This document shows, piece by piece, positions 10,344-30,967 of a stretch of 64,000 nt of DNA (position 1 is its first letter; every line of letters starts with the position of its first letter). Under the pieces are notes generated by a model. It worked only from the letters and a program-made list of their open reading frames with translations, did no database searches and had not been told where the DNA came from. This stretch comes from Rhodoferax sp. PAMC 29310 (GTDB lineage Bacteria > Pseudomonadota > Gammaproteobacteria > Burkholderiales > Burkholderiaceae_C), in contig NZ_CP072852.1 of the NCBI RefSeq assembly GCF_017948265.1, forward strand, positions 744,001-808,000, given 5' to 3'. A program made the position numbers and the translations under genes.

Positions 10344-11575
10344 ATGCTGTATGGGTGTACAGTTGTGTGCCGCAAGCCCCGCCCAAAAAGGCGTTGCACC
10401 ATGCACACTGGCACAGCCCAGCCACACGGCAGACCCCATTCGCACCCCCCCTGCAGGCCACCGAGCGCCCGTCGCGGCCAAGTACCCGCAGCCGCCAAAT
10501 CCAAGCTCTACAACCCGCGCCACCCCGAGCGCACGCTGCTGTACCAAACGGTAGCCGAACACTTTGAGACCTGGTATTAACTCGCCAGTGCGGGGCAGTT
10601 CGACGGGCAGGGGGACCACCACACGCCAAAGCCCTATGTCCGCCAGGCGTTCCGCAAATATCTGGAGTGCGGCATCTTTGCCCACGGCTTTGCCCGCGCC
10701 CGCTGTGATGACTGCGGGCACGACTACTTCATAGCCTTCTCTTGCAAGGGCCGGGGCGTCTGCCCCTCGTGCAACACACGACGCATGGTGGAGACGGCGG
10801 CGTACTTGACAGATGACGTCTTACCCGCCTGCCGGTGCGGCAAATGTGGACAAGGCGACCCTGCACATCAGCGCAGTCGCCTTCATTCACCGGTTCGGCT
10901 CCAGCCTCAATGAGCATGTGCACTTCGACGTTTGTGTGGTCGATGGGGTGTTTGGGAAGTTGTCGGCGGTGTGATTTTCCACCAGGCCATCGGAATTGAT
11001 GCCGATATCGTCGCCCAAGCGCAGGCCACCTTGCGCCACTGGGCAACGCGCCGCCCACCACGCTAGAACCAGTGCAGCCCAAGCGGGCAGTGCACTACCT
11101 ATGGGTCGTTTTGATAGCCCGCATCTACGAGGTGTTCCCGCTGCTATGCCCAATGTGTGGCGGCCAGATGCGCATCAATCGCGTTCATCACGCAAAGTGC
11201 CGACATCCGGCAAATACTCGAACCCATTGGGACAGATTCTGAACCACCACAAATCGCGCCAGCACGTGGTCCTGCTTTGTGGGATGACTGTGACGCGCAG
11301 GTGGGCGAAGGTGATGGCGGCGAGCCAGATTGGGCCCTGGCGGCGCAACCCGTTCCAGACTACGAGGTGGACCAGCTCGTCAATTGGTGACTCAGTGATG
11401 CAGTGGTTTCGACAACTGCGGGGAGCAGTTGCGTGCGCGCCAGACCTAAATCCATCTTGCATCCTAAGGTCTCGTCATAAAGCGGCTGCGAGCGCTCAAA
11501 CTGCCTAGGTCAAACATGTTTCGAAGCCCCAAACCGGTGCCATACTGAGCCTCATTCGCTTAAATTTTTCTATCC
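10344..11575 (+). pseudogene. IS91-family transposase remnant A
   Basis: Decayed Y2-type (rolling-circle) transposase gene with its right-hand flank. Pieces in shifting frames match the family: HPERTLLYQTVAEHFETWY then a TAA stop, a continuation with PYVRQAFRKYLECGIFAHGF, the zinc-binding CDDCGHDYF and GRGVCPSCNTRRM, then [20 protein letters not shown], then ARIYEVFPLLCPMCGGQM and, near the end, the PDYEVDQ region before 11390. The middle of the protein, including the expected catalytic tyrosines, is deleted. The region after 11390 matches the flank of remnant B for about 170 bp, so it is probably the element's right end. Non-functional. Confidence 0.8.
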
Positions 11576-11591
11576 GTAGATCTGCCGGAGT

Positions 11592-11611
11592 CCTAGCAGC
11601 CTGTCGGACTT
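11592..11611 (+). repeat. Left terminal inverted repeat of the IS1182-family element
   Basis: Twenty bases that match the reverse complement of 13151-13170 at every position. Confidence 0.9.
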
Positions 11612-11685
11612 TCGAACCCTGAATTCTCATCAAAGAGCATCGCAAAATATTAAAAACACGCCTGTATCGATAAGTGGTTTTGAGC

Positions 11686-13050
11686 ATGTCCAACTTCATC
11701 CTCACCGACCGTAAGACCGACTACCTGCTGTCCCCATCGGTGCACGACTGGCTCACCCAAGACCACTTGGCCCGTTTCGTTGTTGAAGTCATAGATGGCC
11801 TGGACCTCTCCAATCTCACACGCCAATACGCGGGGCGGGGCTCCAAGGCGCACCACCCAGCAACCTTGCTGGCGATTCTGCTTTACGGCTACGCAACGGG
11901 CATCTTCTCCAGCCGCAAGCTGGAAATGGCCACTTACGACTCCGTGGCCTTTCGCTACATCGCTGCTGGCAGCCACCCCGACCACGACACCCTGGCCACC
12001 TTTCGCAGGCGCTTCATCGATGAACTCTCGGGCCTCTTTGTGCAAGTGTTGGAGATGGCCACTGAGATGAAGCTGCTCAAGCTTGGCACCGTGTGCTTGG
12101 ACGGCACCAAGATCCACGCCAACGCCTCGCGCCACAGCGCCCTCTCGCATGGGCACATCGTCAAACTCGAAGCCCAGCTCAAGCAAGAAGTCCAGGAGCT
12201 TTTTGCACTGGCAGAAGACGCTGACACGGCCAACACCCCGGACGGCATGAGCCTGCCCAAAGAACTCAAGCTGCGCGAAGACCGCCTCGCCGCCATGGCC
12301 ACTGCCAAAGCCAAGATCGCAGCCCGTGCGGCAGAGCGCTTTGAGCGGGAGAGGGCTGAGTTCAACGAGAAGATAAACAAACGCGAAGCGAAGCAAAAGA
12401 AGACAGGCAAAAAGCCCGGCGGCAAGCCACCCGCAGAGCCCCAGCCTGGCGTCAAAGACCGCGACCAGATCAATCTGACGGATGAAGAGTCCCGAATCAT
12501 GAAAGTCAGTGGTGGCGGCTTTGAGCAGTGCTACAACGCACAAGCCGCAGTGGATGCTCAGACGATGCTGGTCGTCGCCACTGGGCTGACCCAGGCTCCT
12601 AACGACAAGCAACAAGTCACCCCGATGATCAAAACCCTGCAGGATCAGGCACAGTGACTGGGTGGCGTCACGACCCTGATCGCAGACACTGGTTTTTGCA
12701 GCGAGAGCAACCTCAAAGCTTGCGTTGATGCCAAGATGGAGCCCCTGATTGCACTGGAGCGACAGGATCACCATCCGCAGTGGCGTGCGCGTTTTACGGA
12801 GCCGGCGCCCTTAGAGGCAGATGCCACGCCGATGCAAGCCATGGCACATCGACTGGCGACAAAAACAGGAAGAGCCGTCTACGCGCTTCGCAAGCAAACC
12901 GTGGAGCCGGTCTTTGGCATCATCAAGTCGGTGATGGGCTTCAGGCAGTTCTCGCTGCGTGGATTGCGCAAAGTCAGTGGTGAATGGAATCTGGTTTGCC
13001 TGGCCTGGAACGTCAAGCGCATGGCGGTACTGCGTCCAGAACTTGGATGA
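11686..13050 (+). pseudogene. IS1182-family transposase with in-frame stop
   Basis: Transposase gene of about 454 codons from ATG 11686. The N-terminal part has the DUF772-type region (DHLARFVVEVIDGLDL, GYATGIFSSRKLE, FRYIAAGSHPDHDTLATFRR) and the first DDE Asp context CLDGTKIHANAS. A highly charged Lys/Glu region follows, then a TGA at 12655-12657. After it the same frame resumes with TTLIADTGFCSE and ends with VEPVFGIIKSVMGFRQFSLRG, the DDE Glu region. One nonsense codon is thus the only visible lesion. Function would need readthrough or help in trans. Confidence 0.85.
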
Positions 13051-13150
13051 AGCAGGAAATTGCCGTGAAAACCGCTCAAAAAGCAAACCACCCGCTGGGA
13101 GGTGTCTATTTTTTGGGCAAATTCGGAATCAGACTGCTTTGCAAAACCTC

Positions 13151-13170
13151 AAGTCCGACAGGCTGCTAGG
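13151..13170 (-). repeat. Right terminal inverted repeat of the IS1182-family element
   Basis: Reverse complement of 11592-11611 at every position; it marks the right edge of the element. Confidence 0.9.
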
Positions 13171-14133
13171 TCGAGGCCACCCACCCTGCTGCTGCGCCCT
13201 CGCCCGGCCCCAGTATTGGTGATTCAGGCCGAGGTAGAGCCGGGCCGTTGGCTCCACCTGGCGGCCCCCATGCCCGACCCCTACTTTCTGGACAACGCCA
13301 ACCCCCGGACCACCGATCGCCTGGCCTTGCAATTGGTGACATTGCTCACTGTGATTGCCCTGTCGGCCCTGCTGGTGCGCGGCCTGATTCACCCACTCAA
13401 TCGGCTAGCCTCTGCCGCCAATGCCTTTGGCAGCGCGGGCGCGCCGCAGTCGGTTCCCGAGATCGGCACCGCCGAGTTGCGCCGCATCGCCCGCGCCTTC
13501 AACCAGAGGCAAGCGCGCATTCACGGATAACTGGTGGACTGTGAGCGCCTGTTTGCCGGCATCTCCCATGGTTTGAAAACACCTATCATGCGGCTTAAGT
13601 TGCGCACCGAACTGTTGGACGATGAGGCCCTAAAGGTCGATTTCCATGAAGACCCGGACGACCTGTATGTGATGGTCAAAGCCGCCCTGCAAAGCGTGCG
13701 CGACACCGACATCCATGAAAACCTCATGTCTGTGCGGCTGGACACCTTGCTGGGGCGCTTGGCCAAGCGCCCCATTCACCCCGACGCGTCGATTGAATGC
13801 ACCACTGAGCCCCTCAGTGTGCAGGGAAACCCCCTGGCGCTGGAGCGGGCGCTGAGCAATTTGATGGACAACGCAGTGCTCTTCGGCGAGCGCGTTCAGG
13901 TGCGCCTCACTCGCCAAGGTGCGCGGGCTTTAGTGGAAGTGCGCGATTTCGGCCCCGGCATTACCCAGGCCTCCATGACCGCCGCCTTTGAGCCCCATGT
14001 GCGCCTGAGCATTGCCCGCAGCATCCTTCAGGCCCACGGTGGCGAAATACGCCTGCACAACCACGTCGAGGACGGTTTAGTGGTCACGGTGCTGCTGCCA
14101 GCCATTTCGCCGGCGGATGCCTTGCCAACGTAG
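13171..14133 (+). pseudogene. Headless sensor histidine kinase remnant (EnvZ/OmpB-like)
   Basis: Begins at the IS1182 right edge with no N-terminal part. Seen in order: a short sensor-domain tail, a TM helix (VTLLTVIALSALLVRGLI), a HAMP-like segment, TAA at 13528-13530, then in the same frame the HisKA motif FAGISHGLKTPIMRL (usual ASVSHDLRTPLTRL), the N box SNLMDNAVLFGE and the G1 box RDFGPGI. The stretch that should hold the F and G2 boxes is deleted: FEPHVRL runs straight into SIARSILQAHGGEI. With a lost head, a stop and a missing ATP lid it cannot be an active kinase. No cognate regulator is nearby. Confidence 0.85.
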
Positions 14134-14193
14134 CGTTGGGGTAAACATTTGGCTGCCGGACATGCGCAGTGAACCAATGTACGCTAGGCTCAT

Positions 14194-15314
14194 CCTATAG
14201 ATAAGGCCCGATAAAGTATGAACTTTATTTGAATTTTCTGATCAGAAGTTCATGGAAAAAGAGAACGCAAGAAAGCAAACACTGGAGCAACTTCACGAGC
14301 GACGCAAGCAAGTCGTGCGGCTGCACAAGAAGGGCATCAAGATCATGCAAATCGTGGCAATGACAGGGCTGAGCTACCCACCCGTTCGCGCTGCAATTGA
14401 CATCTTTGAAGATGGCGGCTGGAGCGCCATTCGACCCGCCTCACGGGGACGCAGCCGTGGCGATGGTCGTGTGCTCAGCCAAGTGCAAGAAGAGGCTGTT
14501 CAAAGGATGATCATTGACAAGCGTCCCGAGCAACTCAAGATGGACTTTCACCTGTGGAGTCGGGCTGCTGTTGGTCAATTGATCGAACAAGAATTTGGCA
14601 TCAAGCTACAGGTTCGCAGTATCGGCAAGTACCTCACCCGCTGGGGCTTCACATCGCAAAAACCAATCAAGCGCGCGTACGAGCAAAGCCCTGCTGCGGT
14701 GCAGGCTTGGTTGGAGGGCGAGTACCCCGGTATTGAGCAGCGTGCCAGAGCTGAAGGGGCCGAAATTCACTGGGGCGATGAGACCGCGCTGGTCAACACG
14801 GACGTGCGCGGCAGAAGCTATGCGCCGACAGGCAAAACGCCGGTGGCCATGGCCATTGGGGGCACCCGTCAGAAGCTCTCCATGATTGCCACGGTGACCA
14901 ACCAGGGCAAGACACGCTGGATGATCATCGACGAAGCATTTGACGCCGACAAGCTCATTGAATTCCTGCAAGCCTTGATCAAGGACGCCGGTAAAAAAGT
15001 CTTTCTGATTCTGGACAATTTTCGCGTGCACCATAGAAAACTGGTGAAGGCTTGGGTGGCTGAGCACAAAGACGAAATTGAGTTGTTTTACCTGCCCAGC
15101 TACAGCCCTCAACTCAACCCAGAGGAGCGGCTCAATGCGGATTTGAAGCAAGAGATGGGCAAGCGCGTACCGGTTAGAACCAAGGCCAAGTTACGCGAGG
15201 CCGCCAACGATCATATGGCGATGCTGGAGCAAAACCCTGAGCGCGTTATGGGCTACTTCCAGGACCGCCGTGTTCGCTATGCGGCTTGATACTTCACAGG
15301 GCCGCATCAATAGG
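14194..15314 (+). mobile_element. IS630-family insertion sequence, apparently intact
   Basis: A transposase gene flanked by imperfect inverted repeats of about 29 bp (14194-14222 and 15286-15314; outer part CCTAT[AT]GAT, inner part GTAT[GC]AA). IS630 elements insert at TA, and TA occurs at both tips. The exact end base is therefore uncertain by a few bases. The element lies between the kinase remnant and the LysR gene. Confidence 0.8.
14252..15289 (+). CDS. IS630-family transposase
   Basis: DDE transposase of 345 aa, full length for the family, with no internal lesion. The N-terminal helix-turn-helix region (VRLHKKGIKIMQIVAMTGLS) and winged-helix segment (LTRWGFTSQKPIKRAYEQ) are followed by the DDE core: Asp in IHWGDETALVNTD, Asp in FLILDNFRVHH, and Glu in YSPQLNPEERLNADLK. 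It starts at ATG 14252, about 50 bp inside the left inverted repeat. It is the only transposase in this mosaic that looks capable of activity. Confidence 0.93.
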   Translation: MEKENARKQTLEQLHERRKQVVRLHKKGIKIMQIVAMTGLSYPPVRAAIDIFEDGGWSAIRPASRGRSRGDGRVLSQVQEEAVQRMIIDKRPEQLKMDFHLWSRAAVGQLIEQEFGIKLQVRSIGKYLTRWGFTSQKPIKRAYEQSPAAVQAWLEGEYPGIEQRARAEGAEIHWGDETALVNTDVRGRSYAPTGKTPVAMAIGGTRQKLSMIATVTNQGKTRWMIIDEAFDADKLIEFLQALIKDAGKKVFLILDNFRVHHRKLVKAWVAEHKDEIELFYLPSYSPQLNPEERLNADLKQEMGKRVPVRTKAKLREAANDHMAMLEQNPERVMGYFQDRRVRYAA

Positions 15315-15362
15315 CTACATTTCAATCCTTCGTTTGAACAAATTGGCCGACCGCAGCCCCTG

Positions 15363-16241
15363 TTAGTTCAGATTGAGGATCGGTATCGCGCCAATTTCTT
15401 TGACAATGAATTCGATCAACGGTTGGGTCGAGGGGTTGGTTCTTCCTTGCTTGGTGAACACCGCGACACAAAACTTGGGCAATTGAGGGAACCTCTTGTC
15501 GGGACCCAGCACTTTCATTTGCGGCAGCACGGACGTTTGGCTCAGCACCCCGACAGCCAATCCGGCACTGACGGCGGCCTGCACGCCGCTGATGTTCATT
15601 GTGGTTACCGCACTTGACCATGGCCTGCCGATACCGTCCAGCGCCTTGATGGCGGCTTCTCGGTAAAAGCAGGGCGTAGGTAAAAAAACCAGGGGCAAAG
15701 GAATGGGGGGGGGCGGAATGTCCATCGGTCCGACGGCCCAGCACAATTGCTCGTAAAACAAGGGTGTGCCTTCGGTGTCGGGTTCGTGACGCGCGGCGAT
15801 GACGACATCAAGTTTGTCTTCGGCCAGATCGCTGCGTAGACGGCGGCTGAGATCAATTTTGAGGCGAAGGTCAAGGCGTGGGTAAGTCGAGCGCAGCTTG
15901 GAGATGATTTCGGGCAATCGGTGGGGTGCGAGGTATTCCACAACCCCGAGTCGAAGTTCCCCCTGCATCTCGGAGCCAGACATGCGCAGAATGGTTTCGT
16001 CATTAAGTTGAAGAATGCGCCGAGCGTAACTCAGCAGCAGTTCACCCTGATCGGTCGGAATGGTTTTGCCTTTGCCCCGCTCAAGCAGGGCTTGCCCAAC
16101 AGCGTCCTCCAGGCGTTTGATCTGAACGCTGACCGAGGATTGCGTTCGGTAAAGACGCTCGGACGCCGCAGTGAAACCGCCGGTGTCCACCACAGTGACA
16201 AAACTGCGCAGTAAGTCCAGATCAAGATTCGACTGTCTCAT
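15363..16241 (-). CDS. LysR-family transcriptional regulator
   Basis: Regulator of 292 aa from ATG 16241; upstream in-frame codons exist but the family normally starts at this MRQSNLDLDLLRSF block. The N-terminal winged HTH (about residues 5-62) contains GGFTAASERLYRTQSSVSVQIKRLE; the rest is the effector-binding domain. It is transcribed divergently from the ABC transporter operon that starts 222 bp away, the usual arrangement for a LysR protein controlling its neighbour. The inducer is presumably the transported compound or a metabolite of it, which the sequence does not identify. It lies close to the right end of the IS630 element but is intact. Confidence 0.92.
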   Translation of the reverse strand: MRQSNLDLDLLRSFVTVVDTGGFTAASERLYRTQSSVSVQIKRLEDAVGQALLERGKGKTIPTDQGELLLSYARRILQLNDETILRMSGSEMQGELRLGVVEYLAPHRLPEIISKLRSTYPRLDLRLKIDLSRRLRSDLAEDKLDVVIAARHEPDTEGTPLFYEQLCWAVGPMDIPPPPIPLPLVFLPTPCFYREAAIKALDGIGRPWSSAVTTMNISGVQAAVSAGLAVGVLSQTSVLPQMKVLGPDKRFPQLPKFCVAVFTKQGRTNPSTQPLIEFIVKEIGAIPILNLN

Positions 16242-16462
16242 AGTTTGTTCATCTTTAAAAGCGATGTAATCGGCACCCGGATCACAGCGGGATGGGCTGG
16301 AAATCATACACTGATGTATTTCGTTTCGTCATAGTTTTTATTTCAATTATTCGTTTCCCAACATCCGGACGGAGTGCCATGATCTGCACTGACCAGACGC
16401 TTTTCCAAGCCACGAAGAGGGCTGGGTCTTGCAAATACCGCTACTTAACAGGAGACAAAACC

Positions 16463-18049
16463 ATGTCAAGAGAAATAGAGTTTTTGAGTCATCAAGTCGT
16501 AGCCGGGCGCCACTCGCGCCGGGATTTTCTGGGTCGTGCGACGGCCCTTGGTGTGTCGGGCACGTTTGCCAATACCTTGCTGTCCGGCGCAGCCATGGCG
16601 GCAGGACCCATGCGCGGCGGCATTTTGAAGATCGGATTGGCGGGAGGCACCTCTACCGACAGTCTGGATCCCGCGCTGAGCGGCAACTCGGTGGCCAACA
16701 ACATTGGCCGCACCTGGGGTGAGGAATTGGTGGAGCTGACCGTCACTGGCGAACTCAAGCCCAAATTGGCGACGGAATGGAGCTCTTCGGCCGATGCCAA
16801 GGTTTGGACTTTCAAGATTCGCAAAGGCGTGCAGTTTCACAACGGCAAGGTGATGACGCCCGACGATGTCGTGGCAACCATGGAGCGCCACTCCGGAAAA
16901 GACACAAAATCTGGCGCGTTGGGGATCATGCGCGGCATCAACTCGATCAAGCGCGACGGTGACAACGTGGTGTTCACGCTCACCGACGCGAACGCGGATC
17001 TACCGTACTTGCTCAACGACTTCCATTTGTTGATTCAGCCCAACGGAGGCAAAGACGCGCCAGCGGCAGCGATTGGCACCGGGCCTTACAAGATGGTCTC
17101 CAACGAACCCGGCCTGCGGTATGTTGGGGCTCGATTTGCCAACTACTGGGCGTCCGGTGTGCGGGGGCATGCCGAGCAGATCGAAATTTTGGTGCTAAAC
17201 GACACCACGGCGCGCATGGCCGCTTTGCAAAGCGGGCGCGTTCACATGATCAACCGCATTGACCCGAAAGTGGTTGACCTGATCAAGAATGTGCCTGGAG
17301 TGAAGATTCAGACAGCTTCAGGTCGGGCGCACTATGTTTTTATTGCGCACTGCAACACCGCGCCATTCAACAACCCAGATTTGCGACTGGCTCTCAAGTA
17401 CGCCATCGACCGTCAGGAGATGGTGGACAAGATTTTACGGGGCTACGGCTCGGTCGGTAATGACACGCCAATCAATGCGGCCTATCCTCTTTATTCGGAA
17501 ATTCCGCAGCGCAGTTTTGATCCAGAAAAGGCCAAGTTTCACTACAAGAAGTCCGGCCACAACGACACTATCGTGTTGCGCTCTGCGGATGTGGCTTTTC
17601 CTGGCGCGGTTGATGCAGCCCAACTGTTTCAGGCCAGTTGTGCCAAGGCGGGTATCAAGCTGGAGGTCAAGCGCGAACCGGGAGACGGCTACTGGACCGA
17701 GGTCTGGAACAAGCAACCGTTCAGCATGTCTTATTGGGAAGGCCGTCCGGTTCAGGATCAGATGTACTCCACGGCGTACATCTCGGGCGCCGACTGGAAT
17801 GAAACCAAGTTCTCAAATCCCAAATTTGACCAATTGGTCATTGCAGCACGGGGCGAGCTCGATACGACCAAGCGCAAAGCCATGTACCGCGACATTGCTG
17901 TCCTTGTCAGCAATGAAGGGGGCACGATCGTGCCGATGTTCAACGACACCATTGCGGCGACCGGACCAAAAGTCGGTGGTTGGGTGAAAAACCCCAACAT
18001 GGAAATGATGGGCTACATGGCCGCGTCTGAGTGCTGGCTGGCGGCTTAA
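16463..18049 (+). CDS. ABC transporter periplasmic solute-binding protein, family 5 (dipeptide/oligopeptide type)
   Basis: Extracytoplasmic binding protein of 528 aa. ATG 16463 is chosen because AGGAG lies 7 bp upstream and the protein then begins with a Tat-type leader: SRRDFLGRA, a hydrophobic stretch, and AAMAAGP for cleavage. Family 5 features include KLATEWSSSADAKVWTFKIRKGVQFHNG, ALKYAIDRQEMVDKIL near the hinge, and the usual length of about 500-530 aa. It is the first gene of an operon with two permeases, a double ATPase and three enzymes. The ligand is unknown; family 5 proteins bind peptides but also glycosides, opines and nickel complexes. Confidence 0.93.
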   Translation: MSREIEFLSHQVVAGRHSRRDFLGRATALGVSGTFANTLLSGAAMAAGPMRGGILKIGLAGGTSTDSLDPALSGNSVANNIGRTWGEELVELTVTGELKPKLATEWSSSADAKVWTFKIRKGVQFHNGKVMTPDDVVATMERHSGKDTKSGALGIMRGINSIKRDGDNVVFTLTDANADLPYLLNDFHLLIQPNGGKDAPAAAIGTGPYKMVSNEPGLRYVGARFANYWASGVRGHAEQIEILVLNDTTARMAALQSGRVHMINRIDPKVVDLIKNVPGVKIQTASGRAHYVFIAHCNTAPFNNPDLRLALKYAIDRQEMVDKILRGYGSVGNDTPINAAYPLYSEIPQRSFDPEKAKFHYKKSGHNDTIVLRSADVAFPGAVDAAQLFQASCAKAGIKLEVKREPGDGYWTEVWNKQPFSMSYWEGRPVQDQMYSTAYISGADWNETKFSNPKFDQLVIAARGELDTTKRKAMYRDIAVLVSNEGGTIVPMFNDTIAATGPKVGGWVKNPNMEMMGYMAASECWLAA

Positions 18050-18062
18050 GGCGGTGTCCACG

Positions 18063-19019
18063 ATGTCTCCCATGCTGAAACAAGTGGCGCAGCGCGTTGC
18101 CATGGGCCTGTTGCTGTTGCTGGGTGTGTCAGGTCTGATTTTCGTGGGCACACAACTTCTGCCGGGTGACCCTGCACATGCCATTCTGGGGCAATCGGCC
18201 ACGCCCGAGGCGTTGGCCAATCTGCGTCAGCAAATGGGGCTCAATGACCCGCCGCTCACGCGGTATTGGTATTGGCTGAGCGGCTTTGTGGTGGGTGATT
18301 TTGGCCAGGCCCTGTCCAACGGGCAGGACATTGCCAGCGCCATGGGCGGGCGCCTGCTAAACACGCTGTTTCTCGCCGCCTGCGCCGCACTGGTGTCCGT
18401 GCCGCTGGCGGTGGGCCTGGGCTTGCTGGCGGTGAAGCACCGTGGCGGTGTGGTAGATCGTGTGATCTCTGGTTTCGGCCTAGCGTCAACGGCCTTGCCG
18501 GAGTTCTTTGTCGGCTATGGGCTGATGTATTTTTTCGCGGTCAAGTTGCAATGGTTCACCAGCGTGGCGATGGTGTATGCGGGCATGTCACTGGGGGAGC
18601 GCTTGTCGGCCATCGTGCTGCCGGTGATGGTGCTGACCCTAGGGGTGTTGGCGCACATGATGCGCATGACGCGAGCCGCCATTCTCAATGTCATGCAGTC
18701 CGCCTACATCGAGACCGCCGAGCTTAAAGGGTTGTCCGCCTTGCAAATCATTTATCGACACGCCTTGCCCAATGCCCTGGCGCCCATCATCAGCGTCGTC
18801 ATGCTGAACCTGGCGTTTTTGATTGTTGGTGTGGTGGTCGTGGAGGTGATCTTTGTCTACCCGGGCATCGGCCAGTACCTGGTCGACCACGTCGCCAAAC
18901 GCGATGTCCCGGTGGTTCAGGCCTGCAGTCTGGTGTTTGCCAGCGTATACATCGGAATGAACATCTTTGCCGATGTGGCCGGTATCTTGTCGAACCCGCG
19001 CCTGCGCCATCCCAAATAA
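18063..19019 (+). CDS. ABC transporter permease, DppB type
   Basis: Inner-membrane permease of 318 aa with about six TM helices. The EAA-type loop that contacts the ATPase is visible around YIETAELKGLSALQIIYRHALPNALAPI. ATG 18063 is preferred because AAGGCGG lies 8 bp before it; GTG 18054 is an in-frame alternative. It forms the translocation path with the next gene. The N-terminal TM followed by GTQLLPGDPAHAILG is typical of DppB/OppB. Confidence 0.93.
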   Translation: MSPMLKQVAQRVAMGLLLLLGVSGLIFVGTQLLPGDPAHAILGQSATPEALANLRQQMGLNDPPLTRYWYWLSGFVVGDFGQALSNGQDIASAMGGRLLNTLFLAACAALVSVPLAVGLGLLAVKHRGGVVDRVISGFGLASTALPEFFVGYGLMYFFAVKLQWFTSVAMVYAGMSLGERLSAIVLPVMVLTLGVLAHMMRMTRAAILNVMQSAYIETAELKGLSALQIIYRHALPNALAPIISVVMLNLAFLIVGVVVVEVIFVYPGIGQYLVDHVAKRDVPVVQACSLVFASVYIGMNIFADVAGILSNPRLRHPK

Positions 19020-19028
19020 GGTTTCACG

Positions 19029-19859
19029 ATGTTTGACTGGAAACGAATTCCCTTGGCGGCCTTGCTGGGCCTGTCGATCAGCGCCGCCTTTGCATTGACT
19101 GCCGTCTTCGCACCCTGGTTGGCGCCGTTTGGGCCGGGTGAGGTGGTGGGCGACGTGTGGGCCCCCATGTCGGCGACGCATTGGATGGGGACCGATAACC
19201 TGGGGCGTGACTTGCTCTCTCGCATGATCCACGGCACTCGGGTGACCTTGACCATTGCCGGACTGGCCACCGCCTTGTCCTTCGTCTTGGGCTCGGTGTT
19301 GGGCTTCATGGCGGCTGAGGCGGGGGGCTGGTTAGACCAGGTGCTGTCACGCTCGGTGGATCTGTTGATGGCCGTGCCAACCCTGATCTTTGCGCTGGTG
19401 GTGTTGTCGGTGTTTCCCTCCACCATGACAGTTCTTATTTTGGTTATGGGAATTTTGGACGCCACCCGGGTCTTTAGGCTCTCCCGTGCGGTGGCCGCCG
19501 ACATCAATGTGATGGACTATGTGGAGGCGGCCAAGCTGCGCGGCGAGGGTTCACGTTGGATCATTTTTTCGGAAATACTGCCCAACGCCTTGACGCCACT
19601 GATCTCCGAGCTGGGCTTGCGGTTCATCTTTGCGGTGTTGTTTTTGTCTTCGCTTTCTTTTCTGGGGCTGGGTGTGCAGCCGCCGGACGCCGATTGGGGG
19701 AGCTTGGTCAAGGAAAACAAGGACGGCATAGTGTTCGGTGTGCCCGCTGCGCTGATTCCCGCGGCCGCCATTGCGGTGCTGACGATTTCGGTCAATCTGG
19801 TCGCAGACTGGGTCTTGCACCGAACGGCTGACCTCAAGGGAGGGCGTGGTCATGCGTGA
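19029..19859 (+). CDS. ABC transporter permease, DppC type
   Basis: Second inner-membrane permease, 276 aa, with about six TM helices. The family hallmark HWMGTDNLGRDLLSRMIHG follows the first TM, and the EAA loop is YVEAAKLRGEGSRWIIFSEILPN. It starts 9 bp after the DppB-like gene and its last 8 bp overlap the ATPase start, indicating translational coupling. Confidence 0.93.
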   Translation: MFDWKRIPLAALLGLSISAAFALTAVFAPWLAPFGPGEVVGDVWAPMSATHWMGTDNLGRDLLSRMIHGTRVTLTIAGLATALSFVLGSVLGFMAAEAGGWLDQVLSRSVDLLMAVPTLIFALVVLSVFPSTMTVLILVMGILDATRVFRLSRAVAADINVMDYVEAAKLRGEGSRWIIFSEILPNALTPLISELGLRFIFAVLFLSSLSFLGLGVQPPDADWGSLVKENKDGIVFGVPAALIPAAAIAVLTISVNLVADWVLHRTADLKGGRGHA

Positions 19860-21507
19860 AGTCCTGCTGATGGACCCACCGGTTCTGGAGATTCGCCACT
19901 TGCGACTGGAAACCACCTTGAGGACGCCGGGCGAGGCCCCGCGCGAGTTGGTCATTGTGGATGACGTGTCCCTGACCCTGTACAAAGGGCGGGTGCTGGG
20001 TCTGATTGGCGAGTCTGGGGCTGGCAAGTCGAGCATAGGCTTGTCATCATTGGCCTATGGTCGCGGCGGCGTCAGAATCACGGCGGGCGAAGTGCTACTC
20101 AAGGGCCAGGACATGTTGAAGTCCAGTTCCAGCGGACTGCGCGCCCTTCGAGGCCTAGCGGTGTCGTATGTGGCCCAGTCCGCCGCGATCGCATTCAACC
20201 CATCGCACTGTTTGATGGACCAAGTGGTGGAGGCCGCTCTTCATCACCGTGTGGCTCCCCTCGCCGCGCTGGAGCAGCGTGCGGTGGGCCTTTTTAGAAC
20301 CTTGGGTCTGCCAGACCCGGAGAATTTCGGAAAGCGGTTTCCGCACCAAGTGTCTGGCGGACAGCTGCAGCGTGCGATGACGGCCATGGCCTTGTGCCCG
20401 CAGCCCGATCTGATTGTGTTTGACGAACCCACCACGGCGCTGGATGTCACGACCCAGATTGATGTCTTGGCCGCTATCAAAGACGCGATTCGTGAAACCG
20501 GTGTAGCGGCCTTGTACATCACGCATGACTTGGCCGTGGTGGCGCAAGTGTCAGACGACATCATGGTGCTGCGACACGGCAAGCTGGTGGAGCAGGGTGA
20601 GACCGGCCAGATCATTCATGCACCGAAAGAAGCGTACACCCAAGCCTTGGTGGGGATGCACACCATCCGCCATGAAGAGAAGGCGCCAGCGCCACAGCCC
20701 TTGCTGACGATCAAGGGGGTGAGCGCCCAATATAGCCGGGCCAAGGCCAAAGTGCTGGACCAGGTGTCCATGGACCTCAGCCCGGGGCAAACCCTGGCCG
20801 TGGTGGGGGAGTCCGGCTCGGGCAAGTCCACCTTGGCGCGGGTCATCACTGGACTGCTGGCCCCCACAAACGGCGAGATCATCTTTAACGGGGTCGCTTT
20901 GGCGCCCCGACTGGGTCAGCGCAGCAAGACCGACCTGCGTGAACTGCAGATGATTTTCCAGATGGCCGACGCCGCGATGAACCCACGTCAGACCGTGGGG
21001 CAAATCATTGGACGACCGCTGGAGTTCTACTTTGGCATGAAGGGCCAAGAGAAAACCCGTCGGGTTCAGCAGCTACTTGACGATATTGAAATGGGTGCCG
21101 GCTTCATGGACCGCTACCCGGCCGAGTTGTCTGGCGGACAAAAGCAGCGGGTGTGCATCGCGCGGGCCATGGCCGCCAAGCCCAAGCTCATCATCTGCGA
21201 CGAAGTGACCAGCGCGCTGGATCCTCTGGTGGCCGATGGCATTCTGAACCTGATGCTGAACCTGCAAAAAGTCGAGGATGTGGCCTATCTCTACATCACC
21301 CACGACCTGACCACCGTCAAAGCAATCGCGGACTCCATCGCCGTCATGCACCAAGGGCGCGTTGTGCGCTACGGCACCAAGTCCGAAGTGTTGACCCCCC
21401 CATTTGATGACTACACCGATTTGTTGCTCTCGTCGGTGCCGAAAATGGAACTGGGCTGGCTGGAACAGGCGATTGCCCATAGGCGCATGGCAAGTTCTGG
21501 GAATTAG
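19852..21507 (+). CDS. ABC transporter ATPase with two fused nucleotide-binding domains (DppD-DppF type)
   Basis: Cytoplasmic ATPase of about 551 aa with two complete ABC modules. Module 1: Walker A GESGAGKSS, signature VSGGQLQRA, Walker B DLIVFDEPTTALD. Module 2: Walker A GESGSGKST, signature LSGGQKQRV, Walker B KLIICDEVTSALD. ATG 19852 is chosen for the GGGAGGG 7 bp upstream; GTG 19846 is an alternative. In the second Walker B the usual EPTSALD is EVTSALD, still with the catalytic Glu. The fused form powers both half-sites of the transporter from a single gene. Confidence 0.93.
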   Translation: MREVLLMDPPVLEIRHLRLETTLRTPGEAPRELVIVDDVSLTLYKGRVLGLIGESGAGKSSIGLSSLAYGRGGVRITAGEVLLKGQDMLKSSSSGLRALRGLAVSYVAQSAAIAFNPSHCLMDQVVEAALHHRVAPLAALEQRAVGLFRTLGLPDPENFGKRFPHQVSGGQLQRAMTAMALCPQPDLIVFDEPTTALDVTTQIDVLAAIKDAIRETGVAALYITHDLAVVAQVSDDIMVLRHGKLVEQGETGQIIHAPKEAYTQALVGMHTIRHEEKAPAPQPLLTIKGVSAQYSRAKAKVLDQVSMDLSPGQTLAVVGESGSGKSTLARVITGLLAPTNGEIIFNGVALAPRLGQRSKTDLRELQMIFQMADAAMNPRQTVGQIIGRPLEFYFGMKGQEKTRRVQQLLDDIEMGAGFMDRYPAELSGGQKQRVCIARAMAAKPKLIICDEVTSALDPLVADGILNLMLNLQKVEDVAYLYITHDLTTVKAIADSIAVMHQGRVVRYGTKSEVLTPPFDDYTDLLLSSVPKMELGWLEQAIAHRRMASSGN

Positions 21508-21585
21508 CAACGCCGCGATTGCTGCGAATGATTGAACACTCGGGTGCTGCGACAAGTGCTTGCATCCATCAATAGGAGACATGGA

Positions 21586-22353
21586 ATGACGATATCGGCC
21601 AATCTCAAGGGCAAAAAAGCATTGGTTACCGGCGGTGCTTCTGGCATCGGCCTGGCAACCGTCGAGATATTTGCACGTGCGGGTGCCGCAGTGGCCATCA
21701 ACGACTTGCCGGGCAGCACCCTGCTGGCCAGCGAGGTCGCCCGTTTGAGCGCGCTTGGACTGCAGGTGTATTCAGCCGAGGGTGATGTTGGTGACCCTGA
21801 CAGCGCTGCACGCATGGTGTGCGCGGCAGCGCAAGCCCTGGGCGGGCTGGACTACCTGGTGAACAACGCCGCGACGCCTGGAACGCGTATCGCCATTCCG
21901 CCAAGTGATCTTGATCGCCAGGACGAGGCCTTCTGGAGCAAGCTGCTGTCGGTCAATTTAGTCGGTCCGTTTCGTTGCATTCGGGCCGCGCAGCCCTACC
22001 TCAGTCAAAACGGTGGTGCGGTGGTTAACGTGGCGTCCACCGCGGCATTTGGTGGAGGGGGGAGCAGTACAGCCTACGCCAGTGCCAAAGCGGCTTTGGT
22101 ATTGATGACCCGTGAACTGGCTAAAGGCTTAGGTCCCGCCATACGGGTCAACGGTGTGGCGCCGGGCTGGGTGGGTGGCTCCGGGTGGGACTGCGGCTGG
22201 GACGAGGCCGAGGCCAATGCCGCCGCGGCCAAGTTGCCTTTGGGCCGCATCGGTCTGCCCGCTGATTTTGCCGAAGTGATTTTTTTCTTGTGTGCCGGGG
22301 CGGGCTACATGACGGGGCAGACCCTGATTGTGGATGGCGGCCTGCTGGCCTAA
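21586..22353 (+). CDS. Short-chain dehydrogenase/reductase (SDR)
   Basis: NAD(P)-dependent oxidoreductase of 255 aa, classical SDR length. Cofactor site TGGASGIG near residue 15, NNAAT motif, catalytic Ser in VNVASTAAFGG, and YASAKAAL with the Tyr and Lys. The C-terminus FLCAGAGYMTGQTLIVDGG is typical. ATG 21586 follows AGGAG by 7 bp; an upstream in-frame ATG at 21532 lacks such a site. It lies 78 bp after the ATPase in the same direction. The substrate is unknown; context suggests it oxidises or reduces whatever the ABC system imports. Confidence 0.92.
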   Translation: MTISANLKGKKALVTGGASGIGLATVEIFARAGAAVAINDLPGSTLLASEVARLSALGLQVYSAEGDVGDPDSAARMVCAAAQALGGLDYLVNNAATPGTRIAIPPSDLDRQDEAFWSKLLSVNLVGPFRCIRAAQPYLSQNGGAVVNVASTAAFGGGGSSTAYASAKAALVLMTRELAKGLGPAIRVNGVAPGWVGGSGWDCGWDEAEANAAAAKLPLGRIGLPADFAEVIFFLCAGAGYMTGQTLIVDGGLLA

Positions 22354-22368
22354 ACGCAATCCATTTCC

Positions 22369-23118
22369 ATGCGTGCTCGCGTGCCTACCCAAGCGTCAAA
22401 TAAACTGGGCATCATTGCCGCGCCGGGTTGGTTTGACCCGACGATGCGGGAGTTTCTGCTACGTCACGCCCATGAGCTGGACGTGACCCAAACCATTCTG
22501 CCGCCAGTTGGTTTTGACTACAGCTTTGAACAAATCAGAGCATCTCTGCCCTGGTTGGAGCGTTCCGCCCGGCTATTGGTCGAGGCCGGCGCGCAAGTGA
22601 TCGCCCAGGTTGGTCCAGCCTTCGCCTACCAGTTGGGACAGAACCCGGCCGGTGCCAAGGCGGTGGGGCAGCAACTCAGCAGTGCCTGCGGGGTGCCGGT
22701 GGTGCTCAATGGCGTGGCCGTGCTGGAGGCGCTGGAGCAGCTCGATCGCCGGCGTATCGCCGTAGCCTGCCCGTATTACAACCCGGCCTGGCAACAAGAA
22801 TTCAGTGGTTTTTTGCAAGACGCCAACTATGTCATCGACCACTTTGGGACCTTTGTCGCCCAGGGGATCATTGCCACAGATGACTTGGTGGCCGCCAGAA
22901 ACTACCGATTCACCGACAACGAAGTGATGCGCAGCGTGCGCCAAACCCGGGCCGATGCGCCTTTGGCCGAGGTGCTTGTCATTGGTGGCTCGGGGGTTCG
23001 CACCCTGCACTGGATCGAGTCGCTTGAACAGGAGTTGGGCATCCCTCTGGTCAGCGCCGACCGGGCGTTGTACCGGGCCGTTTTAGGTCGACTGGCACTT
23101 GAGCCCCAAGCCCATTGA
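22369..23118 (+). CDS. Asp/Glu racemase-fold protein (maleate isomerase/arylmalonate decarboxylase-like) without the usual cysteines
   Basis: Protein of 249 aa resembling the maleate isomerase/arylmalonate decarboxylase/hydantoin racemase superfamily. The two half-domains can be followed: LLVEAGAQVIAQVGPAFAY near residue 80, and LVIGGSGVRTL followed by ESLEQELGIPLVSADRALYRAVL near 204-238, which is the family pattern around the two catalytic cysteines. Here those positions read Gly82 and Gly/Ser at 207-208, so neither cysteine is present; the only cysteines are C107 and C134. It may be a non-catalytic relative or use other chemistry. It lies 15 bp after the SDR gene. The start ATG lacks a strong ribosome site. 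Confidence 0.75.
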   Translation: MRARVPTQASNKLGIIAAPGWFDPTMREFLLRHAHELDVTQTILPPVGFDYSFEQIRASLPWLERSARLLVEAGAQVIAQVGPAFAYQLGQNPAGAKAVGQQLSSACGVPVVLNGVAVLEALEQLDRRRIAVACPYYNPAWQQEFSGFLQDANYVIDHFGTFVAQGIIATDDLVAARNYRFTDNEVMRSVRQTRADAPLAEVLVIGGSGVRTLHWIESLEQELGIPLVSADRALYRAVLGRLALEPQAH

Positions 23119-23173
23119 TTGACGTCAGATGGCATTGGCCAGCTGTCCCCCCCCTATTTCTAAGGAGTGTATT

Positions 23174-24160
23174 TTGAAAGCTGCATGGTACGAAAAATTT
23201 GGTGTTGCCTCTGAGGTAATTCAAGTCGGTGAGTTTGACAAGCCAACCGCAGGGCATGGTGAGGTGCTTGTGCGCATGAAAACCTCTGGCGTGAACCCGT
23301 CCGACACCAAGAAACGGGATGGCGCGTTCCCCAACCTCTTGGACAACGGACCCGTGATTCCGAACAGCGACGGGGCCGGCGTGATCGAAGCGGTTGGCAC
23401 TGGGGTTCCACACTCCCGCGTTGGCCAGCGGGTTTGGATCTATCAGGCCCAGTTCGGGCGCCTGCATGGCACAGCCGCCCAGTACCTGGCTATTGACAGC
23501 TGCCGTGCCGTGCCTTTGCCTGACAACGTCGACTTTGACATTGGCGCCTGCCTGGGTATCCCTGCCATGGTGGCACACCGATGTGTGTTTGCTGACGGTT
23601 CAGTAAAAGGACAAGTCCTGCTGATCACTGGCGGCGCAGGCCGAGTGGGTTACTACGCGATTCAGTTTGCCAAACAGGGCGGCGCCACGGTCATTGCTAC
23701 GGCGCACAGCGCGGAGGCCCAAAAAGACAGCCTGGAAGCAGGCGCTGACTTCTTGGTGAGCCACCACGAGGCAGACTGGCACGAGCAAGTTCTAAAGATC
23801 ACGAAGGGCCGCAAGGTCGATCGGGTGATCGACGTTGAGTTCGGCCAAAACCTGCCCAAAATCCTGGACGTGATCCGAGTCGGCGGAGTCATCGCGAGCT
23901 ATTCATCAACGGTTGTGGCGGAGCCGGCATTGCCTTTCAAACGGATGATGTTCATGGACCTGACAGTTCGCATGGTCATTGTGTATGCGATGCCCGAGGA
24001 CGCCAAAGAGGCAGCCATCCGGGACATCACGTTGGCATTGGAGAAGGGCACCCTGCAACATCGTATTGCTGCCCGCTATCCCTTGGAGCAGTTTGCTGAG
24101 TCGAATCGAAAAATCGAGCAAGGCGGCTTTTTGGGCTGTGTGGTGGTCGACATTGATTGA
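23174..24160 (+). CDS. Zinc-independent alcohol dehydrogenase / NADPH:quinone oxidoreductase (MDR family)
   Basis: Medium-chain dehydrogenase/reductase of 328 aa. Translation should begin at TTG 23174: the AAGGAG site lies 6 bp upstream and the protein then starts MKAAWYEKFG as in the family. N-terminal GroES-like domain (about 1-125) and Rossmann domain with the nucleotide motif TGGAGRVGYYAIQ near residue 157. No structural zinc cysteine cluster and no GHE catalytic-zinc motif are seen, which fits the quinone-oxidoreductase branch. It is probably the last gene of the transporter operon. Role in the pathway is inferred only from position. Confidence 0.88.
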   Translation: MKAAWYEKFGVASEVIQVGEFDKPTAGHGEVLVRMKTSGVNPSDTKKRDGAFPNLLDNGPVIPNSDGAGVIEAVGTGVPHSRVGQRVWIYQAQFGRLHGTAAQYLAIDSCRAVPLPDNVDFDIGACLGIPAMVAHRCVFADGSVKGQVLLITGGAGRVGYYAIQFAKQGGATVIATAHSAEAQKDSLEAGADFLVSHHEADWHEQVLKITKGRKVDRVIDVEFGQNLPKILDVIRVGGVIASYSSTVVAEPALPFKRMMFMDLTVRMVIVYAMPEDAKEAAIRDITLALEKGTLQHRIAARYPLEQFAESNRKIEQGGFLGCVVVDID

Positions 24161-24195
24161 GTCCGTTTGCGTCAGCGCGGACACATTGCTTTCGT

Positions 24196-24540
24196 TCAAT
24201 TCTCATCCATGGCAGCACAGCGGTCCGCCAGAAAGTCGATCAGGGCGCGAACCGAGGGCAACAGCCCGCGCCGCGACGGGTAAACGGCGTCAATGATCTC
24301 TCTGCGCGGTGCCCAGTCTGGCAGCAGGCGGACCAACGAGCCGTCTTTCACTTGCTCACACACCATCATGGTGGGCAATTGCACCCCCCCCCCGACGCCA
24401 GCCAGCGCAGCGCCACCATGTCGTCCGTCACCATGCGCGGCGTGTGAGGCAGTTGGGCGTGGGCTCCATCAATGTGGTGTAGCCGCCAGATCGCTTCGGT
24501 TTGCGGGGAGCCCAGCGCCAGGGAGGGCCATGCGGAAAGG
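24196..24540 (-). pseudogene. LysR-family regulator, C-terminal fragment truncated by the lpdA duplicate
   Basis: Only the last ~115 codons of a LysR effector domain remain. In one frame the minus strand reads LALGSPQTEAIWRLHHIDG and PHTPRMVTDDMVALRWLA; after a run of ten G (plus-strand C at 24384-24393) the sense continues in another frame with VQLPTMMVCEQVKDGSLVRLLPDW and ends RALIDFLADRCAAMDEN. Both pieces are typical of aminotransferase/quinone-reductase-type LysR proteins. At 24540 it stops abruptly where lpdA-derived DNA begins, so the DNA-binding half was replaced. The homopolymer shift is a second lesion or a sequencing error. Confidence 0.85.
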
Positions 24541-25395
24541 TAAATGATGGACGGCCTGATGCAGGGCGCTGACCGCGACCTCGTCAAGATCTGGCAAAAG
24601 ATGAACGCGCCTCGCTTTGACAACATCATGCTCAAGACCAAAACGGTGGGCGCCCGCGCCTTGCCCGAAGGCATTGAGGTGACGTTTGCTGCAGCAGAGG
24701 AGGGCGGCACCGCCCCCGCACCTCAGGTCTACGACCTGGTTCTGCAAGCCGTGGGTCGCACGCCCAATGGCAAGAAGATTGCTGCCGAGAAAGCCGGTGT
24801 GGCCGTCACAGACCGCGGCTTCATCAACGTCGACATTCAGATGCGCACCAACGTGTCCCACATCTTTGCCATTGGTGACATCGTGGGCCAGCCCATGTTG
24901 GCGCACAAGGCGGTGCATGAAGCCCATGTGGCGGCGGAAGTGATCGCCGGTGAACTGCAAGGCAACAAAGAGCTGGCAGCCGCCGCTTTCAATGCCCGTG
25001 TCATCCCCAGCGTGGCCTACACCGACCCCGAAGTCGCCTGGGTGGGTCTCACCGAAGACCAAGCCAAAGCCCAAGGCATCAAGGTCAAGAAGGGCCTGTT
25101 CCCGTGGAACGCGTCAGGCCGTGCCATTGCCAATGGCCGCGACGAAGGCGTTACCAAACTGCTGTTCGATGACTCACCAGAAGCGCACGGCCACGGCAAG
25201 ATTCTGGGCGGCGGCATGGTCGGCACCCACGCGGGCGACATGATTGGCGAGGTGGCCTTGGCCATTGAGATGGGCGCAGATGCCATCGACATCGGCAAAA
25301 CCATCCACCCCCACCCCACGCTTGGGGAGTCCATCGGCATGGCGGCGGAAGTGGCTCACGGTAGCTGCACTGATTTGCCACCCGCACGCAAGTAA
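24541..25395 (+). pseudogene. lpdA 3' duplicate, copy 2 (residues 334-616)
   Basis: Corresponds to lpdA 9403-10254 at a constant offset of 15141 bp. By eye, 24607-25370 is identical to 9466-10229 over 764 bp. Three third-position differences lie just left of this block (24569, 24582, 24606) and several lie right of it from 25371. The copy lacks the lipoyl domain, the FAD site, the redox disulfide and the NAD fingerprint, so it cannot be a dehydrogenase. The frame is open from ATG 24544 with GGAAAGG just before it, so a 283-aa fragment with the interface domain might still be made. Its left edge replaces the head of a LysR gene. Confidence 0.93.
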
Positions 25396-25418
25396 GCCAG
25401 GCTGACACTTGCACACCG

Positions 25419-25448
25419 AGCCCGAACTGGCCACAGTTCGGGCTTTTT
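25419..25448 (+). terminator. Duplicated lpdA terminator after copy 2
   Basis: AGCCCGAACT (25419-25428) pairs with AGTTCGGGCT (25435-25444), followed by T residues to 25448. It is the counterpart of 10276-10309, with a changed loop and without the upstream A run. Confidence 0.85.
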
Positions 25449-25681
25449 GCTGTCTGGCGGCTCGGAAATAATTGTCCTGAAGGTAAAGGTTGTTGGGCGC
25501 TTCGTTTTTGATAGCTCCTCGTACATAATTTACCAAGGCTAGAGCGCTATTTGGCATGTAAACGTGCAGACCGGGGTCCTTCTCAGCACCGGCAACGGCG
25601 TGCTCGGCATCCGCACACACCGGGTTGTCGCGCTGCTGGGCAATCTTCCAACTCCCGGTGCCCATACTTGGTGCAGGTTTG

Positions 25682-25761
25682 CCCCAAGCGCGTACTGATT
25701 TTGGGTGGCGGCATCATCAGTCTGGAGATGGGCAGGGTTTACAGCACGCTGGGCGCTCGCC
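25682..25761 (+). pseudogene. 80-bp lpdA fragment (NAD-site region)
   Basis: Reads CCCCAAGCG, then KRVLILGGGIISLEMG-like coding, then STLGAR, matching lpdA about 9309-9389 with scattered substitutions. It stops near GGCGCTCGC and is followed within about 15 bp by IS91 remnant B. The left breakpoint falls within about 3 bp of that of copy 3. Confidence 0.8.
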
Positions 25762-25775
25762 CGAACCAGCGCATC

Positions 25776-26275
25776 TCAAGCGCGCAGCGCATAACCTTTG
25801 GGCCGTTTTGATAGCCCGCCTCTACGAGGTTTTTCCGCTGCTGTGCCCGCTGTGAGACAGCCATATGCGCATCATCGCATTCGTCACGCACCGTGCCGAC
25901 ATCCGGCAAACACTCGAACACATTGGGGCAGATTCTGAACCACCACAAATCGCGCCAGCACGTGGCCCGCCTTTGTGGGATGACTGTGACGCGCAGGTGG
26001 GCGAGGGTGCTGGCGGCGAGCCAGATTGGGACATGGCGGCACAACCCGTTCCAGACTACGAGGTGGATCAGCGCGTCAATTGGTGACTCAGTGAAGCGGC
26101 GATTTCGACAGCTGCAGGGAGCAGCTGCGTGCGCGCCAGACCTAAATCCATCTTGCATCCCAAGGTCTCGCCTTTGAGCGGCTGCGGGCACTCAAACTAC
26201 CTGAGCCAAACGTGTTTCGAAGCCCCCAAACCCGCGCCACATTGGGCCTCATGGGCTTGAATCTCCGATCCGATC
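25776..26275 (+). pseudogene. IS91-family transposase remnant B with element right end
   Basis: Last ~103 codons of the same transposase as remnant A: KRAAHNLWAVLIARLYEVF, a TGA after LLCPL, then MRIIAFVTHRADIRQTLEHIG, SEPPQIAPARGPPLWDDC and PDYEVDQRVNW ending at 26086. The zinc-ribbon CPLCGGQ of the family is broken by the stop. Beyond 26086 about 190 bp remain alignable to 11393-11575, which probably marks the element's right end. Non-functional. Confidence 0.8.
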
Positions 26276-28122: not shown

Positions 28123-28930
28123 GTCCCCACGCTCATGCTGATTTTGGGCGGTGGCATCATTGGCCTGGAAATGGGCACGGTTGACAGCACGCTGGGCGCC
28201 CGCCTGGACGTGGTGGAAATGATGGACGGCCTGATGCAAGGCGCCGACCGCGACCTCGTCAAGATCTGGCACAAGATGAATGCGCCGCGCTTTGACAACA
28301 TCATGCTCAAGACCAAAACGGTGGGCGCTCGCGCTTTGCCCGAAGGCATTGAGGTGACATTTGCTGCAGCAGAAGAGGGCGGCACCGTCCCAGCACCTCA
28401 GGTCTACGACCTGGTTCTGCAAGCCGTGGGTCGCACGCCCAACGGCAAGAAGATTGCCGCTGAGAAAGCCGGCGTGGCTGTCACAGACCGTGGCTTCATC
28501 AACGTCGACATTCAGATGCGTACCAACGTGCCGCACATCTTCGCGATTGGCGACATCGTGGGCCAGCCCTTGCTGGCGCACAAAGCGGTGCATGAAGCGC
28601 ACGTGGCGGCAGAAGTCATAGCGGGTGAATTGTAGGGCAACAAAGAGCTGGCAGCCGCCGCCTTCAACGCCCGCGACGAAGGCGTTGCCAAACTGTTGTT
28701 TGCTGACTCGCCGGAAGCGCACGGTCATAGCAAGATCCTGGGCGGCGGCATGGTCGGCACCCACGCATGGTGACATGATTGGCGAAGTGGCGCTGGCGAT
28801 TGAAATGGGCGCAGATGCCATCTACATTGGTAAAACCATCCACCCACACCCCACACTTGGGGAATCCATCGGAATGGCCGCGGAAGTGGCGCATGGTAGC
28901 TGAACCGACTTGCCGCCGGCACGCAAATAG
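28123..28930 (+). pseudogene. lpdA 3' duplicate, copy 3, decayed
   Basis: Matches lpdA from about 9307 (GTCCCC) to the stop codon region, residues ~302-616, with many third-position changes. Lesions: a TAG at 28633-28635 in place of CAA; an in-frame deletion of 141 bp relative to lpdA 9858-9998, flanked by CCG at both ends, that removes 47 codons; a one-base insertion in CACGCATGGTGAC near 28769; and TGC to TGA near 28901. The ending AAATAG replaces AAGTAA. It lacks a terminator copy. It is clearly older than copy 2 and cannot encode a working enzyme. Confidence 0.92.
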
Positions 28931-29160
28931 CGGGTAGAACGGCATCTCACGAACACTGTTTGATGGCCAAGAAGGTCCCCAACCTCCCCACGCATCACGA
29001 GCGGGTGTGTTGGGGTTGTGATCGGCACTGCGCGGCCAGCGATATGCGGTGCGGCAATGGGGCTGACCGAGCACCCCACCCCGTGGAGTTGTTCGGCGAC
29101 GATTGCTGGGAATGGGGAGACAACCAGTCCAGTGAAGAGCCTGATGCCGCAGCTGATTCG

Positions 29161-29482: not shown

Positions 29483-29596
29483 CTCGGCTTACACGCGGCG
29501 CGAAGCGCATCACTTTGTAGCCAGTTCAGAATGAACACCGGCGCTTCAGGTCTTTTTGATCTTTACGGCGTAAAGCCAGCCATTCAACAGCCCATG

Positions 29597-30062
29597 CGCG
29601 GCGAATGTGGACAAGGCGGCTCTGCAAATTGGTGGAATCGTTTTCATTCACCGTTATGGCTCCAACCTGAGCGGCCATGTGCATTTCGGTGTTTGCGTGG
29701 TCGATGGTGTATTCGATGAGGTGGGAGGCGACGCTGATGCCGACGTTTAAGGCTCATCGCCAAGAAGCACCTGTCACCTAGCACTGGAGCGGCTGCTTCG
29801 ATGCCGCGCCCGCTTATCAATTGCCATGCAGCGCTTAGGCGATCGCTTTACTGCGCAAGCCAAGCCGGTCACCACGAGTGAGGGCGCACCTGCAGTGGTG
29901 CCGCTGGGCAATGAAATCCACGCCCAGTCAGAGTCCTTGGAACCCAAGCGCTCACCGGTGCCCTGCCTGTGGGTGGTGTTGTTTGCCCACATCTATTAGT
30001 TGTTCCCGTTGCTGTGACCGAAACGCAGCGGGCAGATGGGAATCAAACGCGGCGCCTGAATG
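29597..30062 (+). pseudogene. IS91-family transposase remnant C
   Basis: Two separated pieces of the same transposase as remnants A and B. At 29597-29750 the sense is ANVDKAALQIGGIVFIHRYG then [18 protein letters not shown], aligning with 10845-10972. At about 29850-30062 it continues TTSEGAPAVVPLGNEI, LEPKRSPVPCLWVVLFAHIY, a stop, LFPLL, a stop, PKRSGQM. Stops and deletions exclude function. Confidence 0.75.
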
Positions 30063-30774: not shown

Positions 30775-30967
30775 GTTGTTCTCCTTTTAGATGAATAGAT
30801 GAGAGCCTGACAGCTGCTCACATGTGTGCTGAGCGCAAGGAAAAATGTGCTGCCAAACGCTTTAACCTTATCCGATCAGGCCGTTTTTTTCAAATCGGCC
30901 AGAAGAATGGGTGGCAAACCCCCATTTCTCTTATAGCGAAACACGGTGTTTGGCTTCACCCGAGGGC

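Follow-up and report, generated by a model that had tools for sequence, protein, structure and literature searches.

The DNA analysed here, a window of 64 kb corresponding to positions 744001-808000 of a host genome assembled as one contig of 4.59 Mb, contains a full-length lpdA gene (copy A, 8404..10254, + strand) as the last gene of an aceE-aceF-lpdA operon. Among named lpdA loci, those of Rhodoferax and other Comamonadaceae matched this gene best, and the host is presumably a bacterium of this group. Behind it follow a terminator hairpin (10280..10309, +), a LexA-type box CTGT-N8-ACAG (10347..10362, +) and the degraded remnant of an IS91-family transposase gene (10495..11577, +). The hairpin was located on an alignment read by eye, in which many of the aligned relatives, but not all, had a similar hairpin 3' of lpdA. 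The DNA between this unit and the truncated second copy of lpdA (11578..24541), assessed from its list of frames and in part with Pfam, holds two transposase genes, a LysR gene, SBP_bac_5-type transporter genes, dehydrogenases and an Amdase-like gene, and is presumably cargo. Comparison of 17 window proteins with the loci of relatives found no native downstream gene that would mark the flank of lpdA. At 24200-24541, immediately left of the second copy, reverse-strand frames resembled by eye the worn end of a LysR-type regulator, and this putative remnant appeared to be cut at the junction.

The second copy (copy B, 24542..25462, +) is a 5'-truncated lpdA with its terminator and matches 9401-10323 at 97.7 % (17 mismatches in 924 columns); its open frame spans 24544-25395 on the + strand. 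The preliminary description had claimed that 24607-25370 equals 9466-10229 at every base and that the differences cluster on either side, and alignment of the two copies bore this out. The core (24607..25370 in copy B, 9466..10229 in copy A, both +) is identical over all 764 bases, and the six coding differences sit in the edges: at 24570, 24582 and 24606 within the left 65 bp, and at 25371, 25383 and 25386 in the last 25 bp of the frame. All six are synonymous and in third position. Were six differences scattered by chance over 854 coding sites, a run of 764 or more sites without any would arise with an analytic probability of 9.6e-6, and none occurred in 200,000 random draws. The core has the form of a conversion tract, free of differences and bounded by them, at a chance of about 1e-5. 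At these six sites the relatives in the alignment gave no consistent polarising pattern. Directly behind copy B there is no IS91 transposase sequence, whereas the full lpdA has one.

The local ancestry of copy A was followed in 14 third-position windows of the gene. One relative locus, L036, was nearest, with rank 1 in 11 of them, and ranked 11th, 13th and 5th in three windows within 9244-9963, a dip that is only suggestive of a local ancestry signal.

Further lpdA pieces and IS91 remains in the window

Downstream of copy B, past a short repeat (25589-25678) that is 79 % identical to host genome positions 539956-540046, lies a scrap of lpdA (B2, 25682..25761, +; 89 % to 9309-9388). It is directly followed by the 3' part of an IS91-family transposase remnant (25763..26272, +). 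The alignment with ISPps1 reaches the right end of that element at 26272 and, behind lpdA, at 11577. Copy C (28123..28932, +) corresponds to the 3' part of lpdA in decayed form; it has lost an internal stretch and contains an in-frame stop. It matches lpdA at 92 % over 551 bp and at 87 % over another 269 columns, and 32 of the 42 differences in the long part are in third position. Pieces of an IS91-family transposase follow at 29544..30038 (+), and an additional piece was found downstream at 30974-31081. Degraded sequence of this family stands, in sum, behind lpdA, behind scrap B2 and behind copy C. Copy C and scrap B2 begin at nearly equal lpdA positions, 9307 and 9309, a hint of a preferred end point or of a shared origin.

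In its intact form the ISPps1 transposase has a Zn_Tnp_IS91 and a Y2_Tnp domain. The window keeps remnants only, two of which (10873-11019 and 29631-29732) passed the Y2_Tnp cut-off. PMC13393415 reports a LexA-type box at the transposase promoter of ISCR8 and control by LexA. As the ISCR8 described there comes from a Pseudomonas sp. ADP strain, and the plasmid elements of Pseudomonas sp. ADP are annotated as ISPps1, we infer that the two names denote one element. Elements of this group are recognised by the sequence CGGTTGAATTTCCTATCCGT at the right end (oriIS), beyond which the DNA varies, by an lpdA 3' end and terminator directly ahead of the transposase, and by the LexA-type box in the transposase promoter. 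The unit of copy A has the lpdA 3' end and terminator in this position, and the box lies at 10347-10362. The right end CGGTTGAATTTCCTATCCGT had no match in the window at up to 4 substitutions; the exact end motif is here too worn for detection.

Remains of IS91 elements were also seen elsewhere in the host genome. The stretch 30275-30995 has a 93.5 % copy near 4,014,800 (L145, 4772-5505), and IS91 transposase pieces flank both the stretch and its copy; a frame of 143 aa within the repeated stretch (30343-30774) had no Pfam match. Near 4281 of L145 (host genome 4,014,279) lies an IS91 remnant that lacks lpdA; its homology with the window starts at GTTC inside an lpdA-type terminator (window 10297), a candidate terIS end. 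At 2.92 and 2.94 Mb, two identical IS91-type copies of 2003 bp are found 20 kb apart (L142, 2711-4713, and L143, 2791-4793), with the transposase split over two frames.

lpdA fragments in relatives and lpdA arms on plasmids

Fragments of lpdA are not confined to the window. At E 1e-4, matches to the own lpdA were found downstream in 20 of 86 lpdA loci, some of them weak and probably paralogues; at E 1e-8 and with at least 2 kb of downstream DNA, 17 of 74 loci had such fragments. On the upstream side of lpdA, 2 of 81 loci had matches, none of which reached 50 bp. IS91 traces were present at 8 of the 17 fragment-bearing loci versus 3 of the 57 loci without fragments (p = 1.8e-4), and at 7 versus 2 loci after terminator-only matches had been removed by eye (p = 2.9e-4). 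A constant association of lpdA fragments with IS91 was rejected, since 9 of the 17 loci had no IS91 trace, or 10 after the cut by eye.

In 30 fragments from other genomes, 435 of the 577 differences from the host's own lpdA were in third position, and the changes assigned to the fragment were distributed over codon positions 1, 2 and 3 as 65:46:176. A fragment that had drifted as a pseudogene since its birth should approach equal thirds; the bias therefore points to divergence of these fragments as working genes, probably in separate lineages. Among the 11 fragments of at least 200 bp from other genomes, 6 were nearer to the lpdA of another species (some by under one point), 4 were nearest to their own lpdA and one was tied. 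Copies B and C were both nearest to the window's own lpdA among 86 genes.

A plasmid search with the 3' part of lpdA returned 89 records, among them pADP-1, on which lpdA sequence lies ahead of the ISPps1 transposase in four copies. Two of the four keep both lpdA halves, split by IS1071, and plasmid arms reach lpdA position 9071 (window numbering) and further. We extracted 20 copies of ISPps1-type elements. Their sources were 16 plasmid records plus the chromosome of Acidovorax soli, picked by hand from the hit lists and not a random sample; 19 copies carried an lpdA arm, which was absent in the JS42 copy. In the sampled genomes of the family, a junction query matched 21 of 299 at E 1e-60, and 11 of the 21, counted from the table, align across the lpdA-transposase junction; at least one of the matches lies on a plasmid-sized contig. 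On a 28-kb plasmid of Diaphorobacter sp. MNS-0 (L165), an IS91 transposase stands behind aceE, aceF and lpdA, separated from lpdA by an IS1595-type insertion.

The arms have a history of their own. Between copy 3 of pADP-1 and the copy located near 100 kb on pSR8, the lpdA arm has 34 differences in 592 bases (4, 2 and 28 by codon position), versus 0 in the 111 bases of the 3' region and 1 in the 1540 of the transposase (1 in 1651 together). The pSR8 arm, in turn, is identical to the lpdA of A. soli over all 592 bases, while the transposases of these two show 73 differences in the part present on the A. soli contig. Since arm and transposase of one and the same pair of copies have diverged unequally, arms have been swapped, and the lpdA arm of ISPps1-type elements is an exchange zone.

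A phage or integrase origin was considered and rejected: viral contigs gave one pattern match and none that was confirmed as a relative of lpdA, two phage records matched at 66-68 %, and the frames inspected between lpdA and the fragments, mostly by eye, showed no recognisable integrase.

A layout comparable to that of the window was found in G232, a genome of the same family assembled as one contig. Here aceE-aceF-lpdA is followed by a transposase and, 9.5 kb on, a truncated aceF'-lpdA has no transposase behind it. Mismatches between the two copies per 100 bp are mostly 13-30, and once 51, on the left side, drop to 4, 2, 1 and 1 over about 400 bp within lpdA, and climb again to 4-18 on the right. 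In the tree of the left part, the partner of the operon copy is an lpdA of G336 that is not followed by ISPps1 (0.836); the second copy clusters with L083 and L082 (0.987 and 0.994). In the core tree both copies group with L082 and an ISPps1 plasmid arm. The tree of the right part puts the operon copy within the clade of the elements (0.888); the second copy lies beyond that clade (0.833) but did not group with a native gene. The operon copy and A. soli, which has ISPps1, share a 3' region without a single difference in 109 bases. The sequence downstream of the second copy is similar to that downstream of lpdA in G324, a genome of the same genus (80 % over 921 columns), and in G336 (76 % over 893 columns). 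Left and right edges of the two copies point to opposite ancestry, clearly on the left and less so on the right. As far as the trees allow, the two copies appear to be a pair of reciprocal recombinants, such as a single crossover accompanied by a conversion tract should produce; the evidence is weaker for the right side. A further genome, G175 (the L098 locus), has the same layout, but an identical core was not seen there.

Origin of the truncated copy and relation to known systems

The window and G232 have in common a full gene with transposase, other DNA, and a truncated copy without transposase. Their patterns of differences agree as well. On this ground, and given the observed anatomy of the locus, the plasmid layout, the swapping of arms and the matching product in G232, we consider it probable that copy B was left as the distal, downstream part of an integration that took place by homologous recombination within lpdA and involved the arm of an ISPps1/ISCR8-type IS91 element. 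The core is best read as the crossover tract or as a later gene conversion tract. We infer that the window arose as G232 did, and any timing or direction given to the homogenisation is of the same kind.

The steps would be the following. In the ISPps1/ISCR8 group the transposase gene directly follows the lpdA terminator; rolling-circle transposition that runs past the terminus would therefore carry lpdA sequence along, in keeping with published IS91 behaviour. Element DNA with such an arm could then recombine with the chromosomal lpdA. A single crossover (Campbell-type integration) would yield two products. Upstream, a full lpdA would join its native 5' part to the incoming 3' end and have the transposase gene behind it; downstream, a 5'-truncated lpdA would have the incoming left edge and the native 3' end. 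Repair of the heteroduplex or later gene conversion would homogenise the core while both edges stay different, and repeated rounds would stack older pieces downstream; scrap B2 and copy C are read as such earlier rounds.

Several observations count against an integration of this kind: the fragment-bearing loci that lack an IS91 trace, the missing identical core in G175, the weaker placement on the right side in G232, the edge sites of the window that relatives do not polarise, the want of a native downstream gene, and the affinity of copies B and C to the window's own lpdA. The transposase behind lpdA, moreover, is dead and diverged, and yet copy B has an open frame and an identical core, so that the homogenisation looks younger than the decay of the element. 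Either a recent integration brought in DNA of a related strain that had already decayed, or gene conversion evened out the core at a later time. Exchange between the fragment and the active gene is supported in both versions. The part of the preliminary description that proposed such exchange has thus held, on the clustering of differences beyond chance and on the exchange of arms and alleles seen elsewhere; its view that the fragment began as an ordinary old local duplicate is less supported, given the third-position bias and the IS91/ISCR8-type remains around the pieces.

That older view, a partial in-genome duplication of lpdA whose middle was overwritten by gene conversion and beside which the IS91 remnants are incidental, we regard as unlikely. 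It agrees with an identity bounded by differences and with the affinity of copies B and C to the own lpdA, and the dead transposase suggests an old arrangement. Free drift, however, would not be expected to leave only synonymous differences in the edges (six of six) or the third-position excess in copy C. Transposase sequence also stands behind copies A, B2 and C in the same way as in ISPps1, and the edges in G232 are of opposite ancestry. Less probable still is the uptake of DNA from a related strain, for example by transformation, which would have recombined in lpdA, joined elsewhere by chance and displaced the old 3' end with no part played by IS91. The enrichment of IS91 traces beside fragments and the recurrence of the lpdA-transposase order on plasmids argue against it, although IS91 traces are missing at about half of the loci with fragments and 6 of the 11 longer fragments are nearer the lpdA of another species, some by small margins. 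An assembly artefact, in which a collapsed near-identical repeat had its consensus written into both copies, is very improbable: 764 bp do exceed the length of short reads, but the host genome is one contig, the edges and flanks of copies A and B differ, and a near-identical core recurs in G232, likewise one contig.

For a wider proposal we see the case as evenly balanced. In it, part of a core metabolic gene would travel with the ISPps1/ISCR8 lineage as a homology arm, and the chromosomes of one bacterial family would offer the landing site; integration would repeatedly turn lpdA into a chimera of host and element, refresh the arm with the host allele and stack displaced gene ends that record past integrations. 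ISCR elements are known for carrying neighbouring genes. If the proposal is true, lpdA arms are a readable record, each integration leaving a displaced gene end and a chimeric essential gene, and this could account for the variability 3' of lpdA in this group of bacteria and for the exchange of DNA between plasmids and chromosomes.

The homology-driven rescue of ISCR DNA is a known idea. IS91 transposition running into adjacent DNA is described in PMC9676059, and an lpdA piece beside an IS801/IS1294-type transposase appears in a gene table of PMC4914505. According to PMC13393415, experimental proof of the ISCR transposition mechanism is still absent. In the literature searched, which is thin on subscription journals, we found no paper linking lpdA to ISPps1/ISCR8 mobility and no description of lpdA as an element arm or landing site.

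Of the known systems, ISPps1/ISCR8 itself (IS91 family, Y2_Tnp; for example on pADP-1) shares with the window the order of lpdA 3' sequence, terminator, LexA-type box and transposase. The transposase remnants are homologous and the right ends align. It differs in that the window transposase is dead and the full gene beside it is the working chromosomal lpdA. According to the model for ISCR1 and complex class 1 integrons, DNA borne by the element recombines homologously with a resident copy of the same sequence, which is the likeness to the present case; the sequence shared there is the integron 3' conserved segment, whereas in the window a core metabolic gene would take that role. A further parallel is found in islands, such as e14 in the E. 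coli gene icd, that on integration provide a housekeeping gene with a new 3' end and displace the old one. Those islands use a site-specific integrase; between lpdA and its fragments, none was recognised in the inspected frames (frame lists read mostly by eye, with Pfam on nine window frames and one ISPps1 frame). They also use a short segment, whereas the arms described here are hundreds of bases long or longer.
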